Source of the DNA: a virus
Length of the DNA: 54,759 nt
IMG/VR virus record: IMGVR_UViG_3300030389_001655
Span: 1 to 54,759 of that record
Reading direction: 5' to 3' (one strand)
The translations under genes were made by a program, and so were the position numbers. A model generated the notes under the pieces. It saw nothing but the letters and a program-made list of their open reading frames with translations. It was not told where the DNA came from and searched no databases. Positions 5,790 to 21,178 of this stretch are shown here, piece by piece; the first letter of the stretch is position 1, and each line of letters opens with the position of its first letter.

Positions 5790-7930
5790 TGCCAATAAAA
5801 ACTTTAAAATTTAAACCTGGTATTGTAAAAGACATAACATCTTATGCTAACGAAGGTGGGTATGTTGATGGTGACAAGATACGTTTTCGTTTTGGTTTTC
5901 CAGAAAAAATAGGTGGTTGGGTTAAGTTTAGTCCAAACTCTTACGAGGGCACGGCTAGAAGATTACATAACTGGGTTGCTCTTGATGGATCTGACTTCTT
6001 AGGTGTTGGATCACACTTAAAATATTATATTGAAGAAGGTCAAACTTTTAATGACATCACTCCTATTAGAAGCACAACAAGTGCTGGTGACGTTACCTTT
6101 GCTGCAACAAATGGGTCAACAACAATAACTGTAACGGATCAAGCACATGGAGCTATAGCAGGTGATTTTGTAACTTTTTCTGATGCAGCTAGTCTAGGCG
6201 GTAATATTACAGCCGATGTCTTAAATATAGAATATCAAATACAAACTTTTGTAAATTCTAATACTTACACAATAACTTCTGCCGTTGCAGCTAATTCATC
6301 AGATTCTGGTAATGGTGGCGGTAGCACAGTAGGAACATATCAAATAAACACAGGACTAGACAACACAGTTGGTGGTACAGGTTGGGGTGCAGGTCAATGG
6401 AGTGGTACAACAAGTGGTGGTTTATCAACAACAATTAATGAGGGTGGCACATTTAGTGATTCAGATACAACACTTACAGTAACAAGTGGCACTGGTATAG
6501 CAAACAATGATTTTATATTAATTGATCAAGAAATTTTAAAAGTAACAAACGTGTCCACTAACGATCTAACAGTAACAAGAGCACAAAACGGAACTATAGC
6601 AGCCACTCATGCTGATGGAGCAACTGTATTTTTAATTGTAGGTAATGCCTCATCTGCTGATGACTTTGTAGGTTGGGGTGATGCTGCAAGTGTTACAGTA
6701 CCTGGTGCACAAATTAGAACTTGGTCACACGACAATTTTGGAGAGGATTTAATTATAAATGCAAGAGATAGTAGTTTATTTTATTGGGATAAAACATTAG
6801 GTACAAGTGCTAGAGCTATAGAACTTAGTGCAACCTCTACCTTTAGTGGAGAAAAAAGTGTGCCTACCATAGCAAAACAAGTTTTAGTATCTGATGTTGA
6901 TCGTCACGTTATAGCTTTTGGTTGTGATGGAGTGGGTGGTAGCTCCTCGGCAACACAAGGAGATGGCGTGCAAGATCCACTGCTTATAAGATTTAGTAGT
7001 CAAGAAAATCCAGTAGACTGGTTTCCAACTGCAACAAATACTGCAGGTGATTTAAGACTTGGTGCAGGCTCTACTTTTGTACAGGCTGTTGAAACAAAAA
7101 GAGAGATACTTGTTTATACAGATAAGTCTTTACATTCCATGAGATTTATAGGTCCGCCATTTACTTTTGGTATTACACAGATTGCATCTAATATAACCAT
7201 TATGTCACCAAGTGCAGCTATTGCTACAGAAGATGTGGTGTATTGGATGGGTATTGATAACTTTTATGTACACGCTGGACAAACTGCACAATTGCCTTGC
7301 ACAGTCAAAGATGAAGTATTTACAAACTTTAACTTAGAAGAAAAAGATAAAGTTATTGCGGGTATTAATTCTGAGTTTGGTGAGGTTTGGTGGTTCTATC
7401 CGTCAGCAAGTGCATCAGAAAATGATAAATATGTTATTTGGAATTATGTAGAAAAGGTGTGGTACTTTGGAACTTTATCTAGGACAGCTTGGTTAGATCG
7501 TGGCATAAGAAACTTTCCGATTGCTGCAAGCACACCACATTTATTTAACCATGAATCTGGGTTTGATGATGACACTTCTGCCATGACTGCGTTTATAGAA
7601 ACTGCTCCGATGGATATAGGAGACGGAGATAAGTTTGTATCTCTTAAAAGAGTTATACCAGATCTTACATTTACTGGATCTGTAACTGGGAGCTCTCCAA
7701 ACGCAACATTTACAGTCAAAGCAAGAGATTTTCCTGGCTCTGACTTTGATCAAACAGGCACTGGCACAACATCAAGAACCGCAACAAGTCCAGTTGAACA
7801 ATTTACAGAAAAATTAGATTATAGAATTAGAGGCAGATCTTTTGCAATAAGACTTGATTCTAGTGCATTAGGGTGTAAATTTAAGATGGGAACACCCAGA
7901 GTTGATATTAGAGAAGATGGAAGAAGATAA
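5789..7930 (+). CDS. tail nozzle / P22 gp10-like stabilisation protein
   Basis: 713 residues. The start MPIKTLKFKPGIVKDITSYA followed by NEGGYVDGDKIRFRFG, and a repetitive beta-propeller-like middle (GDLRLGAGSTFVQAVETKRE, VVYWMGIDNFYVHAG, NDKYVIWNYVEKVWYFG), are typical of the gp10/nozzle proteins of short-tailed phages that plug the tail after DNA packaging. A Ser/Thr-rich insertion lies at about residues 95-300. Its place before the internal virion proteins agrees. Assignment is by pattern, not a structure match. Confidence 0.7.
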   Translation: MPIKTLKFKPGIVKDITSYANEGGYVDGDKIRFRFGFPEKIGGWVKFSPNSYEGTARRLHNWVALDGSDFLGVGSHLKYYIEEGQTFNDITPIRSTTSAGDVTFAATNGSTTITVTDQAHGAIAGDFVTFSDAASLGGNITADVLNIEYQIQTFVNSNTYTITSAVAANSSDSGNGGGSTVGTYQINTGLDNTVGGTGWGAGQWSGTTSGGLSTTINEGGTFSDSDTTLTVTSGTGIANNDFILIDQEILKVTNVSTNDLTVTRAQNGTIAATHADGATVFLIVGNASSADDFVGWGDAASVTVPGAQIRTWSHDNFGEDLIINARDSSLFYWDKTLGTSARAIELSATSTFSGEKSVPTIAKQVLVSDVDRHVIAFGCDGVGGSSSATQGDGVQDPLLIRFSSQENPVDWFPTATNTAGDLRLGAGSTFVQAVETKREILVYTDKSLHSMRFIGPPFTFGITQIASNITIMSPSAAIATEDVVYWMGIDNFYVHAGQTAQLPCTVKDEVFTNFNLEEKDKVIAGINSEFGEVWWFYPSASASENDKYVIWNYVEKVWYFGTLSRTAWLDRGIRNFPIAASTPHLFNHESGFDDDTSAMTAFIETAPMDIGDGDKFVSLKRVIPDLTFTGSVTGSSPNATFTVKARDFPGSDFDQTGTGTTSRTATSPVEQFTEKLDYRIRGRSFAIRLDSSALGCKFKMGTPRVDIREDGRR

Positions 7931-16127: not shown

Positions 16128-16886
16128 TTACGACCTTTTGCCATAAATCTTTAATCTAATTCGTCTATCAGGACTGGTTTTATGATTATAAAGCTTTTCG
16201 ATCATAATTATAAAATCATCTCTACTACCCTGATTGGTTAATTTAGAAGAAAAGTTTTCTACTCTTTTCTTAAATATTGACCAGACAAAAGATTTATCAT
16301 TCATTACTGCAATCATAGCACGAATGAAATTACATTTTTTCCATTTATCAAAATAATGACTTATCCATAAAATAGATTTAGCAATCTCTTTACCTTTTTC
16401 TAAATCATGCACTTTGAAATTACCCTCACGAAATTCTTTATAATCGTGCTGGTCTAGGTAACCTTTACCATTTAACATGGCTAATGAATCAGACACGCTA
16501 AATCCATAGGTCCTAACAAACCATTCTAAGGTTACATAATGCTCTGCACCTAATTTAAAATGACTCATCATATATTCGTGCATGGTCCATTTTCTGTTAA
16601 CAGAATTTAACTTTCTTATATCTTGTAAAGTCAAACCCTTCTTTACAATATAATGAACTGGCAAACCTAAAACTTTATAAGCTTCAAGTCTGTGTTGACC
16701 ATCGCATACTTCCATATTCTCATTAACGATAATAGGTATACTTAAATCCCTTTCATCGATATGACCTGAAAGATCTTTGACGTGCTTATTCACTATATCT
16801 CTATTTCCGACTAAGTATGAAAACTTACTATAGTCAGAAGTAACGTGTATTTTATTTTTATTAATATTTTGCAATTTTTTCTCCAT
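16128..16886 (-). CDS. ParB/sulfiredoxin-like domain protein
   Basis: 252 residues. The N-terminal third has the ParB-type core: a partial substrate loop (LSIPIIVNENMEV), then CDGQHRLEAYKVLGLPVHYI, with DGQHR as the signature motif. Middle helices (TLEWFVRTYGFSVSDSLAML) could be a helix-turn-helix. Family members bind DNA, use CTP or act as nucleases; which applies here is open. It is the second gene of a minus-strand pair, its ATG sharing a base with the RHH gene's stop (TAATG), so the two are co-translated. Confidence 0.75.
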   Translation of the reverse strand: MEKKLQNINKNKIHVTSDYSKFSYLVGNRDIVNKHVKDLSGHIDERDLSIPIIVNENMEVCDGQHRLEAYKVLGLPVHYIVKKGLTLQDIRKLNSVNRKWTMHEYMMSHFKLGAEHYVTLEWFVRTYGFSVSDSLAMLNGKGYLDQHDYKEFREGNFKVHDLEKGKEIAKSILWISHYFDKWKKCNFIRAMIAVMNDKSFVWSIFKKRVENFSSKLTNQGSRDDFIIMIEKLYNHKTSPDRRIRLKIYGKRS

Positions 16887-17317
16887 TAGCTGAAAATTGT
16901 CTTAGTTTGTGCATTTTGCAATTTTTTAAGTTGCTCCTGCATTTTTCTTTTTTCTCGCCTGGCGTAGCGATAGTCTTTAGTTATTAGTGCAACAGTGGAT
17001 GCTATTGATCTATTATCCTCTTTTGCAATTGTAACTAAATCCTCATACACAGTTCCATGAACATTAAGAGACTTAAATTTATTTTTTTTTTCTAAATCTT
17101 CAAGTTCATATACTGGCTCCATGTAATTGCCATCAGGATCAGCATATTCTTCTCGAAAAGAATTATGCAATTTTTGTTGTGCTTCTGAAATAGTCAAAAG
17201 ACCATTCTCAGCATCCTCTATAATTTTTTTCGATAGTTGATCCCAAGTTAAATTTGGTTCTTCAACAAGCTTTTTTCTTAGTCTAGGCTTACGAAAAACC
17301 TTTTTTTCTTTAACCAT
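16886..17317 (-). CDS. ribbon-helix-helix domain regulator
   Basis: 143 residues. A basic N-terminus (KVFRKPRLRKKLVEE), a helical middle, then a C-terminal RHH-like unit: strand KFKSLNVHG, helix TVYEDLVTIAKEDNR, turn, helix SIASTVALITKDYRYARREK. Very strong Shine-Dalgarno (GGAGG) on the minus strand. It reads divergently from the replication operon, and its own promoter carries GTAAT/ATTAC half-sites shared with early + strand promoters. It is therefore the best candidate for the phage's early regulator, perhaps with the ParB-like partner. Confidence 0.65.
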   Translation of the reverse strand: MVKEKKVFRKPRLRKKLVEEPNLTWDQLSKKIIEDAENGLLTISEAQQKLHNSFREEYADPDGNYMEPVYELEDLEKKNKFKSLNVHGTVYEDLVTIAKEDNRSIASTVALITKDYRYARREKRKMQEQLKKLQNAQTKTIFS

Positions 17318-17922: not shown

Positions 17923-18777
17923 TTGGCTTTAGAAATAATAACTGCCGAACAACGTATGGCAGAAAAGCGAGGTCATAAGATGGTCATCTGTGGTCAAAGT
18001 GGTGTGGGCAAGACAACTCTTGCCCGTACTCTTGATGCAGATAAGACTTTGTTTATTGATCTTGAGGCAGGAGATACTGCCATTAAGGATTTTCCTATTG
18101 ATGTAATTAGACCAAAGACATGGCAAGAGTGTCGTGACTTTGTTTGTTATATTGGTGGTGTTAATCCATCTTTAACAAGGGAGCCTTATGATAAACTACA
18201 TCATGAGAGAGTTATGCAAGAGTTTGGAGATAAACTTGTGCGAATGAGTAAATACGACACTATATTTGTAGATAGTATTACAGTTGCAGGACGTTTGTGT
18301 TTTCAATATTGTATGTCTCATCCCGATAACATTGCTGAAAGATCTGGCAAAGTTGATACTCGTGCTGCTTATGGTATGCACGGCAGAGAGATGATGGCTT
18401 GGCTAACTCATCTACAACATATTAGAGATAAGAATGTTATATTAGTTGGCATACTTGATTCTAAGTTAGATGATTATGGTCGAACTAATTATGAGTTACA
18501 GATAGAGGGTTCTAAAACTGCACGAGAACTACCTGGAATTGTTGATGAAGTTATCACAATGACAGTTATGGGTGGTGGCGAAGGTGTGCAACCTTATAGA
18601 GCTTTCGTATGTCAAACTCTTAATGAGTGGGGTTATCCAGCCAAAGATAGATCTGGCAAACTTGAGGTTATTGAAGAGCCACATTTAGGCAAACTTTTAG
18701 AAAAGCTTAATGGCAATCCTTTGACCGATTTAAATAAAGTTGAATCACAACCAATAAAGAAAGGAGAATTATCGTGA
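17923..18777 (+). CDS. Sak4-like RecA-fold ATPase (single-strand annealing/recombination)
   Basis: 284 residues with a TTG start, chosen because GGAGG lies six bases upstream and the TTG directly follows the previous TAA. Walker A is GQSGVGKTT (24-32) and Walker B is IFVDS (114-118). The layout matches small RecA-like Sak4/AAA_24 phage ATPases that work with an SSB-like partner encoded next door, as here. Predicted role: recombination-dependent replication or repair. C-terminal ~30 residues are charged and probably disordered. Confidence 0.82.
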   Translation: MALEIITAEQRMAEKRGHKMVICGQSGVGKTTLARTLDADKTLFIDLEAGDTAIKDFPIDVIRPKTWQECRDFVCYIGGVNPSLTREPYDKLHHERVMQEFGDKLVRMSKYDTIFVDSITVAGRLCFQYCMSHPDNIAERSGKVDTRAAYGMHGREMMAWLTHLQHIRDKNVILVGILDSKLDDYGRTNYELQIEGSKTARELPGIVDEVITMTVMGGGEGVQPYRAFVCQTLNEWGYPAKDRSGKLEVIEEPHLGKLLEKLNGNPLTDLNKVESQPIKKGELS

Positions 18778-19391
18778 TTGATTTAAATAATGTAACTGGG
18801 GGTGGTGGTTCTGATTTTGAACTCATTCCCGAAGGGACTATTGCAAGAGCAATAATAAATATACAACCTAATCCTTTAACTATTCCAGAGTTAAGTAACA
18901 CGCCAATGTTTAAGCAATCAACAAGCTCATCTGCTAAATGGATGGATGTTGAGTATACCATTTTTGGTGGTCAATTTGACAGACGTAGGTTCTGGCATAA
19001 GCATTTTTTTGATGGTGATTCCAAAGATACAGATGGTGTATCTAAGTCAAAAAAAATTAGCTTGGCTTGGTTAAAGGCAGTTTTAGAGAGTCATAAGAAT
19101 ATAGCTTCTAATGATGCTTCACCAGAGGCACAAGCCGTTAGGCAATTAGATCCTTCTAAGGGTGGAGTTGCATCTATTAACGGCATGAGTGTTTGTGTTA
19201 AAGTAGGTATTGAGAAATCAAATGATCCTCAATATGGTGACAAAAACATACTTAGAGTTGTTTTGACACCTGGCATGGATGGTTATATTCCTAACGGCGA
19301 TACACCGAATAGTTCACCACCTGTAGGCGGGGGCACTCCACCAGTGAATAATGGTGGTGGTGCTACTGTACCCAGTTGGGCAAAGGGATAG
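18774..19391 (+). CDS. SSB-like partner of Sak4 (DUF669-type)
   Basis: 205 residues with a GTG start overlapping the previous stop; Shine-Dalgarno AAGGAGAATT. A beta-rich N-terminus (DFELIPEGTIARAIINIQPN), WMDVEYTIFGGQFDRRRFWH, and a conserved GMSVCVKVGIE block precede a low-complexity Gly/Pro/Asn tail ending VPSWAKG. DUF669-type proteins beside Sak4 bind single-stranded DNA. The unusual tail may replace the acidic SSB tip for partner binding. Confidence 0.7.
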   Translation: MIDLNNVTGGGGSDFELIPEGTIARAIINIQPNPLTIPELSNTPMFKQSTSSSAKWMDVEYTIFGGQFDRRRFWHKHFFDGDSKDTDGVSKSKKISLAWLKAVLESHKNIASNDASPEAQAVRQLDPSKGGVASINGMSVCVKVGIEKSNDPQYGDKNILRVVLTPGMDGYIPNGDTPNSSPPVGGGTPPVNNGGGATVPSWAKG

Positions 19392-19395
19392 TGGT

Positions 19396-19480
19396 GAAAG
19401 GCATAGCAAGGGCTAACTGACCTTAGTCTACTTGCAACTCGTTTGGGTAGTACGAGTGCCCTAAAACTACCCACCATTAA
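19396..19480 (+). ncRNA. candidate structured RNA: hairpin plus H-type pseudoknot
   Basis: P1 hairpin: GCAAG (19406-19410) with CTTGC (19431-19435) continues into GGCTAA (19411-19416) with TTAGTC (19423-19428, one G-U), leaving a 2-nt bulge. One base later comes a pseudoknot: ACTCGT (19437-19442) pairs ACGAGT (19452-19457), and interleaved GGGTAGT (19445-19451) pairs ACTACCC (19466-19472). Loops are 2, 0 and 8 nt, ideal H-type geometry. It ends about 15 nt before the Shine-Dalgarno of the helicase gene, so it may control its translation. No known riboswitch class recognised. Confidence 0.55.
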
Positions 19481-19495
19481 GCCAGTGAGGGATAT

Positions 19496-21178
19496 ATGAT
19501 TTTAAGACCATATCAAGAGATAGCAGTACAAGATGCTTCAGATGCTTTAGATAAGCATAAAAATACTATTGTTGTTGCACCAACTGGTGCTGGTAAAACT
19601 ATTATGTTATCTGCATTGATTGGCAAACGATATTCCAAAGGTAAAAAAGTTTTAGTATTACAACATAGAGATGAACTTGTAGGACAGAATGCAAGTAAGT
19701 TTAGTCGTGTTAATCCAAAAATATCAACAAGTGTAGTTGATGCTTCACAAAAGAACTGGAATGGTAGTGCAGTATTTAGCATGGTGCAGACCTTATCCAG
19801 ACCGAACAATTTAGATAATATGTCGAAAGTAGACATGATGGTCATAGATGAAAGTCATCATGCTATAGCTGACACATACATGAGAATTATAAAAAGAGTT
19901 AAGGAAGCTAACGAGTCTGTAGAAATTGTTGGCTTTACGGCTACACCTAATCGTGGTGACAGAAAAGGCTTGAAAGATATTTTCAACAACTGCTCACATC
20001 AGATTGAAATAGGCAACTTGATACGAGAAGGTTTTCTTGTGCCACCAAAAACATTTGTTGTAGATGTGGGTGTACAACAAGATTTACAAAATGTTCGTAA
20101 AACAGTTTCAGACTTCGACATGAGTGAGGTCGAGCAGATCATGAACAAACGTGCCATCAACGAGAAGATTGTAGAGGAATGGCAAGACAAAGCTGGAGAT
20201 AGAAAAACAGTTATATTTTGTAGCACAGTCGTTCATGCACAAGATTTATGTGATGAGTTTAGAAGATCACAAGTTAGAGCTGAGATTGTAACAGGTGAAA
20301 CTCCATCGGAAGAACGAAAACAAATACTTCATGACTTAGAACATGGAGATGTCCAGGTGGTTGTGAATGTTGCAGTTTTGACAGAGGGTTTTGATGCACC
20401 ACCTGTCAGTTGTATTGTGCTTACAAGACCATGTTCATACAAATCAACAATGGTCCAGATGATTGGTCGTGGACTACGAACAATAGATCCAGAGGAACAT
20501 CCTGGAATAATTAAAAAAGATTGTATCGTATTAGACTTTGGTACAAGTGTTTTGACACATGGATCGCTTGACGAGGGTGTCGATCTTGATGGTAAAGATA
20601 AATCACAATCAGGAGCTGGACCAGAGAAGATGTGTCCAAATTGTAAATGTCTCATACCATTAAATGTTCGTGTCTGTCCTATGTGTGGGCATGAAATCGA
20701 AATGCAGGCAAAAGAGTTGCTTGAAACATTTAACATGACAGAGATTGACCTTATCGATAGATCTCCATTTAGATGGATTGACTTATTCAATAATGGCAAA
20801 TGTATGTCAGCAAGTGGCTTTAATGGATTTGGTTTAGTTGCACATTTAGATGATGTTTCTGTAGCGTTAGTTAAGCGTACAAAGGGTAAACTTAGAATTG
20901 TAGGTGTAGGCACAAAAGAACAAGCTTTAGCTTCTGCTGACGATTTTTTAAGGCAAATAGAAGATAGTGACGGAGCTAAGAAAGGTAAAAGATGGTTGAA
21001 TCAAGCTATGACAGAAAGACAAAGAGAAGCTTTGGCTAGAGAAAACAAAATTGTCAGCCCATTAGATTTAAGTTTTAGTAAATACAAAGCAGCTTGCTGG
21101 TTAAATTATTTGTGGAATAAACAAGAAATAGATGGCAAAGTTTTAGATTATTACGAAGGAGATAACAATGCAGCGTAG
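19496..21178 (+). CDS. SF2 DEAD/DEAH-type DNA helicase with zinc ribbon
   Basis: 560 residues. Walker A APTGAGKT (28-35), motif II DESH (118-121), motif III FTATP (147-151), motif VI QMIGRGLRT, and after the helicase core a CPNC...CPMC zinc ribbon at ~380-395. This is the SSL2/UvsW-like phage helicase type used for fork remodelling, branch migration or origin opening. Shine-Dalgarno GTGAGGGAT. It lies between the SSB-like gene and nuclease/primase genes. A C-terminal ~150-residue domain has no recognised family. Confidence 0.88.
   Translation: MILRPYQEIAVQDASDALDKHKNTIVVAPTGAGKTIMLSALIGKRYSKGKKVLVLQHRDELVGQNASKFSRVNPKISTSVVDASQKNWNGSAVFSMVQTLSRPNNLDNMSKVDMMVIDESHHAIADTYMRIIKRVKEANESVEIVGFTATPNRGDRKGLKDIFNNCSHQIEIGNLIREGFLVPPKTFVVDVGVQQDLQNVRKTVSDFDMSEVEQIMNKRAINEKIVEEWQDKAGDRKTVIFCSTVVHAQDLCDEFRRSQVRAEIVTGETPSEERKQILHDLEHGDVQVVVNVAVLTEGFDAPPVSCIVLTRPCSYKSTMVQMIGRGLRTIDPEEHPGIIKKDCIVLDFGTSVLTHGSLDEGVDLDGKDKSQSGAGPEKMCPNCKCLIPLNVRVCPMCGHEIEMQAKELLETFNMTEIDLIDRSPFRWIDLFNNGKCMSASGFNGFGLVAHLDDVSVALVKRTKGKLRIVGVGTKEQALASADDFLRQIEDSDGAKKGKRWLNQAMTERQREALARENKIVSPLDLSFSKYKAACWLNYLWNKQEIDGKVLDYYEGDNNAA

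Follow-up and report, generated by a model that had tools for sequence, protein, structure and literature searches.

A nested double-pseudoknot RNA predicted between the SSB-like and helicase genes of a group of uncultivated phages

A structured RNA between two replication genes

Between the SSB-like gene and the helicase gene of a metagenomic phage lies a structured element that we predict to be a new cis-acting, intercistronic control RNA of the replication operon, formed in the sense transcript. The window analyzed here is IMG/VR record IMGVR_UViG_3300030389_001655, a virus record of 54,759 bp (positions 1-54,759), and it carries one copy of the RNA. The copy occupies much of the 104-nt gap between the stop codon of the SSB-like gene and the helicase ATG, and the helicase Shine-Dalgarno (SD) sequence begins 14 nt beyond the end of the knot (Table 1). 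The pairing conserved among relatives indicates a nested double pseudoknot, not the hairpin plus H-type pseudoknot of an earlier sequence-only reading. The element adds a covariation-supported family that is lacking from Rfam 15, and it is a compact RNA in which two competing folds appear to be readable from the sequence.

Five helices, designated P1, P2, P3, C and D, were parsed in 81/81 distinct RNAs. The first hairpin is composed of P1 and P2 and the second of P3. Helix C, the pseudoknot of the sequence-only reading, joins the P3 loop to the 3' end of the element. Helix D, a second pseudoknot, forms between a bulge in the first hairpin and the segment that separates P3 from the 3' strand of C. 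Few unpaired bases are conserved, and the fold is defined by its architecture.

Table 1. Coordinates of the RNA, its helices and the flanking features in the window
Feature	Position	Strand	Partner or basis
SSB-like gene (modeled OB-fold product), PHROG 2300	18774..19391	+	ORF and family calls; stop TAG 19389-19391
Whole element, predicted nested double-pseudoknot RNA, ~67 nt	19406..19472	+	81 distinct homologues, pair counts, tree-aware null
P1 5' strand GCAAG	19406..19410	+	Partner 19431-19435; 398/405 cells paired
P1 3' strand CTTGC	19431..19435	+	Pairs with 19406-19410
Helix D strand AGGGC	19409..19413	+	19409-19410 common to D and P1; 405/405 cells paired (D required by parser)
Helix D strand GCCCT	19458..19462	+	First five bases of the 8-nt loop of the sequence-only reading
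P2 hairpin	19414..19430	+	TAAC 19414-19417 / GT(c)TA 19426-19430, loop TGACCTTA 19418-19425; comparison of relatives' hairpins
P3 5' strand ACTCGT	19437..19442	+	Partner 19452-19457; 324/324 cells paired (inner 4 pairs)
P3 3' strand ACGAGT	19452..19457	+	Pairs with 19437-19442
Helix C 5' strand GGGTAGT	19445..19451	+	Partner 19466-19472; 486/486 cells paired
Helix C 3' strand ACTACCC	19466..19472	+	Pairs with 19445-19451
Spacer and helicase SD, GAGGG (19487-19491)	19473..19495	+	Between RNA and helicase ATG
SF2 helicase gene, PHROG 16	19496..21178	+	ATG 19496; presumed controlled gene

The two interleaved stems of the sequence-only reading, of 6 bp (P3) and 7 bp (C), are present exactly as claimed, and the loops of 2, 0 and 8 nt agree with the coordinates and the stems. 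Dinucleotide shuffles of the whole window yield on average 0.025 perfect knots of the same size class per strand; this strand has one, which appears in two registers of the count, and the opposite strand has none. With interleaved stems, short loops and compensatory changes, P3 and C have what is expected of an H-type pseudoknot, and this pseudoknot is real, within a larger conserved RNA. The picture of a hairpin plus a textbook H-type knot was right about the interleaved stems but incomplete, in that the second, interlocked pseudoknot D had been overlooked. The 8-nt loop is not free, since its GCCCT pairs with the AGGGC of the hairpin. Energy minimization does give the proposed 11-bp hairpin; its inner pairs (GGCTAA/TTAGTC), however, differ from the conserved pairing and are probably not native.

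Covariation among distinct copies

The sequence-only reading made its knot depend on compensatory changes in relatives, and when covariation was examined the stems were indeed found to be kept in this way. Covariation was evaluated in the 81 distinct RNAs, using a tree built from the RNA itself. P1, D, P3 and C are 98-100% paired in these copies despite compensatory changes (Table 1); the full count for D (405/405) leans on the choice of a parser that required D, which no sequence failed. As a tree-aware null, the substitution numbers observed for each column were replayed randomly on the tree in 300 simulations. None of the 300 reached the observed pairing of any of the four helices, the observed values against the null maxima being 0.983 vs 0.909 for P1, 1.0 vs 0.985 for D, 1.0 vs 0.824 for P3 and 1.0 vs 0.757 for C.

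The changes themselves are of the expected kind. P3 alone has 17 same-branch double changes, and the GGGTAG/CTACCC of helix C becomes GGGGGG/CCCCCC in other clades. The P2 pairs covary as well (GGC/GCC, GAC/GTC, ACC/GGT), and the pairs of D occur as G-C/G-U/A-U, C-G/G-C/U-G and G-C/A-U, two-sided changes included. Five column pairs had E<0.05 across the 81 sequences, all of them inside the structure (four in P3, one in C), by our own imitation of R-scape's null, not R-scape; by the same measure none of the D pairs was individually significant. In a MAFFT alignment of 20 sequences, 17 pairs had changed on both sides, compared with 4-9 pairs in slid controls. Cells with two-sided changes in that alignment numbered 87 vs 29.7 after shuffling, and the covariation score was 0.496 vs at most 0.109 with the partners slid.

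The choice of strand can also be read from these copies: the mRNA-sense strand would be the one that folds, because 38 cells are G.U and only 1 is A.C. This bears on a different reading, in which the element works as single-stranded DNA, for example as a replication or primase loading site, and keeps its position through gene order. The abundance of G.U and near absence of A.C pairs in the mRNA-sense strand argues against such a site, as do the complementarity to the ribosome-binding site (RBS) in two clades, described below, and the lack of a lasting GC skew turn at the element. A location in the replication module, beside the SSB, helicase and primase genes, would fit it, as would the tolerance of the element within a reading frame; taken together, we regard a DNA function as very improbable.

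Distribution and gene context

Among helicase relatives in viral contigs, the RNA was found at 75/80 loci, and the five loci without it had at most 424 nt available upstream of the helicase match. More diverged copies were reached with an SSB profile, and further ones by pattern and protein scans. We assembled 369 loci from metagenomic viral contigs, each comprising an SSB gene and the 150 nt that follow it. The RNA lies within 150 nt 3' of the SSB stop in 362/369, a redundant set in which many loci are fragments of the same contigs and the distinct RNAs number 81. The seven exceptions are two contigs with a helix-turn-helix (HTH) gene and no RNA; one copy missed by the scan, where a compensatory change has turned the core GGC/GCC into GAC/GTC; and the L088 group, with a 306-aa gene intervening between SSB and RNA. 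The RNA is entirely absent from only two contigs of the 369-locus set.

No nucleotide match to the RNA of the window or to that of the GC clade was found in 50,697 phage records of isolated phages, and SSB relatives in a Wolbachia phage and in Acidithiobacillus phage AcaML1 have no such RNA 3' of the gene. Candidate copies in bacterial genomes came to four matches in GC-rich genomes, which we attribute to chance, as the rest of the fold is absent. Two wider scans returned true copies only on contigs encoding proteins of this phage group; the remaining matches look like chance (70 in the reversed control). The RNA thus appears confined to a group of uncultivated phages, all of whose members in this analysis are metagenomic contigs.

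The gene 3' of the RNA is usually the helicase; many contigs instead carry an inserted small gene at this position, encoding zinc-ribbon proteins (starting MKTYEQAK), HNH proteins, a family starting MRPTYE, or small HTH proteins. Regardless of which gene follows, a start codon with an SD lies 18-35 nt 3' of the RNA in 118/147 distinct contexts. In two HTH lineages (the L256 group; L274 and L329), the HTH frame opens no later than the SSB stop and traverses the RNA, whose fold is kept. The RNA would therefore be under selection even within a gene, and in those lineages it is not solely an untranslated leader. A stimulator of frameshifting or stop readthrough was considered and rejected: in the window every frame closes at once past the SSB stop.

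Two side observations concern these contexts. Insertions of unrelated small genes concentrate between RNA and helicase, a hot spot seen in L035, L048, L081, L091, L109, L124, L268 and others, and the contigs whose small HTH gene contains the RNA in its 5' portion are L256, L269, L278, L286, L290, L274 and L329. In L088 (and likewise in L145, L162 and L164) the helicase is absent from this place, and the RNA sits between a PHROG 5931 gene (6399-7319, the 306-aa gene) and a PHROG 13596 gene (7426-7782, 118 aa).

The distribution bears on whether the knot serves mRNA stability or processing: placed after the SSB stop, it could block exonucleases or define a 3' end, giving an excess of SSB over the downstream genes. 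P1 starts mostly within ~20 nt of the SSB stop, the fold is defined by architecture with few conserved unpaired bases, and the element is independent of the gene that follows, all of which speaks for this explanation. It sits poorly with the 306-aa gene between SSB and RNA in the L088 group and with the HTH lineages, whose ribosomes must traverse the RNA, and it leaves the RBS complementarity of two clades unexplained. We consider protection of the mRNA improbable.

The SSB-like protein and known RNAs

The product of the SSB-like gene was labeled as such from sequence alone, and the label gains structural support. An AlphaFold2 model of the protein has a mean pLDDT of 87.6, and VIA-align ranked PrgE of pCF10 first among its PDB matches, with Z 9.7 and 9.3 (the second over 113 residues at 2.9 A); the following rows had Z of at most 6.5. 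Foldseek matches were weak (best E 0.11), with mostly bacterial SSBs at the top. PrgE is an OB-fold ssDNA-binding protein (PMC11137577). The model thus gives PHROG 2300, listed as of unknown function, an OB-fold like that of PrgE and points to an SSB role, although a modeled fold in common with PrgE does not prove that the protein acts as an SSB.

Such a protein raises the possibility of control in the style of T4 gene 32, which we find plausible by analogy. In T4 and RB69, the gene 32 operator consists of a pseudoknot followed by a less structured stretch with the ribosome-binding site; in T4 it sits 5' of gene 32 itself, and gp32 represses its own mRNA (PMC535899). The likeness lies in the phage SSB context (362/369 loci, with an OB-fold model) and in a pseudoknot followed by an RBS-bearing stretch. 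The differences are that T4 has one pseudoknot of ~28 nt, whereas two are interlocked here in 67 nt, and that this RNA follows the SSB stop and precedes another gene, instead of preceding the SSB start. M13 gp5, an SSB, represses the mRNA of gene 2 (as cited in PMC535899); to the extent of that citation it is a closer parallel than T4, an SSB controlling another replication gene, the likeness being purely one of logic.

By this analogy, SSB would bind the knotted RNA, spread 3' and repress the next gene whenever SSB exceeds ssDNA, and an RNA switch would not be needed. Nearly every locus has the RNA linked to the SSB gene, the OB-fold modeled for the upstream protein is most similar to that of an ssDNA-binding protein, and there is precedent both for a pseudoknot followed by a less structured RBS stretch and, as cited in the T4 study, for action on another gene (PMC535899). 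This support is positional, and the SSB-like protein diverges to ~35% identity while the RNA fold is kept. An SSB operator of this kind strikes us as rather unlikely; among the alternatives we nonetheless place SSB binding first, ahead of mRNA protection, an ssDNA function and a metabolite aptamer, in that order. Whether recurrent SSB-linked pseudoknots balance SSB against other phage replication proteins has now become a directly testable question.

The sequence-only reading had found no known riboswitch here, and this holds: in the window and 16 relatives, no Rfam 15 family matched at the gathering score, and matches up to E 5 are chance, the best being mir-451 (E 3.2) and isrK (E 3.9). No tRNA-like or other known RNA was found in the window. 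RF03084 (the DUF2815 motif) and the ssNA-helicase motif are structured RNAs that take their names from SSB-like or helicase genes of phages; RF03084 did not match the window, and control sequences were silent too. A nested pseudoknot near the ribosome-binding site also controls translation in the E. coli alpha-operon leader, which is bound by ribosomal protein S4; its sequence, genes and topology are all different. The nested double pseudoknot of HDV has a strand order corresponding to P1, D, P2 and P3 here. However, this RNA has the extra pseudoknot C, no Rfam match, and no linker with a catalytic C before D'. That linker (J4/2, between P4 and P2 in HDV) is absent from 81/81 copies, in which D' follows P3 by 0-2 nt.

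Alternative pairing with the ribosome-binding site

P1 and D have in common the two bases at the top of P1 (19409-19410 in the window), so that the upper pairs of P1 would compete with the outer pairs of D. Among relatives these bases occur as GC, AG, GG, GT and AC, nearly always fitting both partners; in contigs L478 and L509, which have a further AC state, both partners also fit. Because the common bases fit both partners in nearly all states, P1 and D are best viewed as candidate competing helices.

Between the RNA and the next start codon, copies of class 2 and the GC clades contain a repeat of the RNA's 5' half (TCTAGC, then AGG), with which the 3' half of the hairpin could pair and thereby cover the SD. 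In these clades a TCTAGCA copy and the SD in the spacer complement the 3' half of the hairpin; an example is the duplex of CCTTCGT.TGCTAGA with TCTAGCAATGAGGG, at -19.0 kcal/mol. The pairing of the hairpin's 3' half with the downstream stretch averages -18.5 kcal/mol in class 2 and -11.9 and -13.0 in GC clades, and these energies beat shuffles with a median p of 0.005 in class 2 and in each GC clade. With P1a and D blocked, the downstream pairing reached a probability of 1.0 in five GC and class 2 examples, in foldings that held the knot region unpaired and whose energies ignore pseudoknot thermodynamics. Within a clade, own pairings were no better than swapped ones, which argues against fine-scale co-evolution. 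The anti-RBS pairing of these two large clades is a plausible translation switch.

The switching part is weak or replaced in the window's own clade. Anti-RBS pairing was not significant in the window (p 0.49) or in class 1, to which it belongs (median p 0.44), nor in class 3 (bar one), the L088 group and the HTH lineages. Three more general features were rejected: a TCTAGC copy before the SD is absent from class 3 and the HTH lineages, loop-to-SD kissing is not backed by significant complementarity in either class 1 or class 3, and an outer closing stem in class 1 was not significant.

The reading that we favor, tentatively, is that the RNA sets the translation of the following gene by an exchange between the double pseudoknot and the anti-RBS pairing. 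In the knotted state, pseudoknots C and D would tie the P1/P2 and P3 hairpins together and leave the ribosome-binding site accessible. The alternative state would have the 3' half of P1/P2 release its own 5' half and pair with the 5'-half mimic, SD included, so as to close the site. The controlled gene would be whichever one starts 18-35 nt downstream (the helicase in the window). The sequences establish the fold, how well it is conserved, where it lies and, for two large clades, its complementarity to the RBS; an exchange of the two folds inside the cell, with an effect on translation, is the part we infer. Candidate triggers are binding of SSB, termination of ribosomes at the SSB stop a few nt away on the 5' side, or a ligand. 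A broader proposal, that this is a class of strand-exchange RNA switches, reusable leaders with a mimic of the knot's 5' half in the next RBS and a state set by the SSB level or by ribosomes finishing SSB, seems doubtful to us.

A ligand as trigger would make the element a small-molecule riboswitch. The compact double pseudoknot and an alternative fold covering the RBS in two clades would be in keeping with that, but the copies lack a cluster of invariant unpaired bases such as known aptamers have, no Rfam family matches, and the genes downstream, a helicase or varied small genes, suggest no common metabolite. We hold a metabolite aptamer to be the least likely of the alternatives, and distinctly improbable.

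Several minor features were seen near the element. In class 1 and class 2 copies, a conserved ATG/GTG in the SD region (19485-19499 in the window) begins a frame of four codons, the TGA of which overlaps the helicase ATG; this may represent a tiny leader frame or may be fortuitous. One contig, L013, has an insertion immediately 5' of the RNA (~2850-2905), consisting of an inverted repeat, TTGGAAGTGAA...TTCACTTCCAA. Elsewhere in the window, two minus-strand genes at 16128-17317 (encoding a ParB-like protein and an unknown 143-aa protein) break the run of plus-strand genes, and around them, at 16-18 kb, the GC skew is negative.
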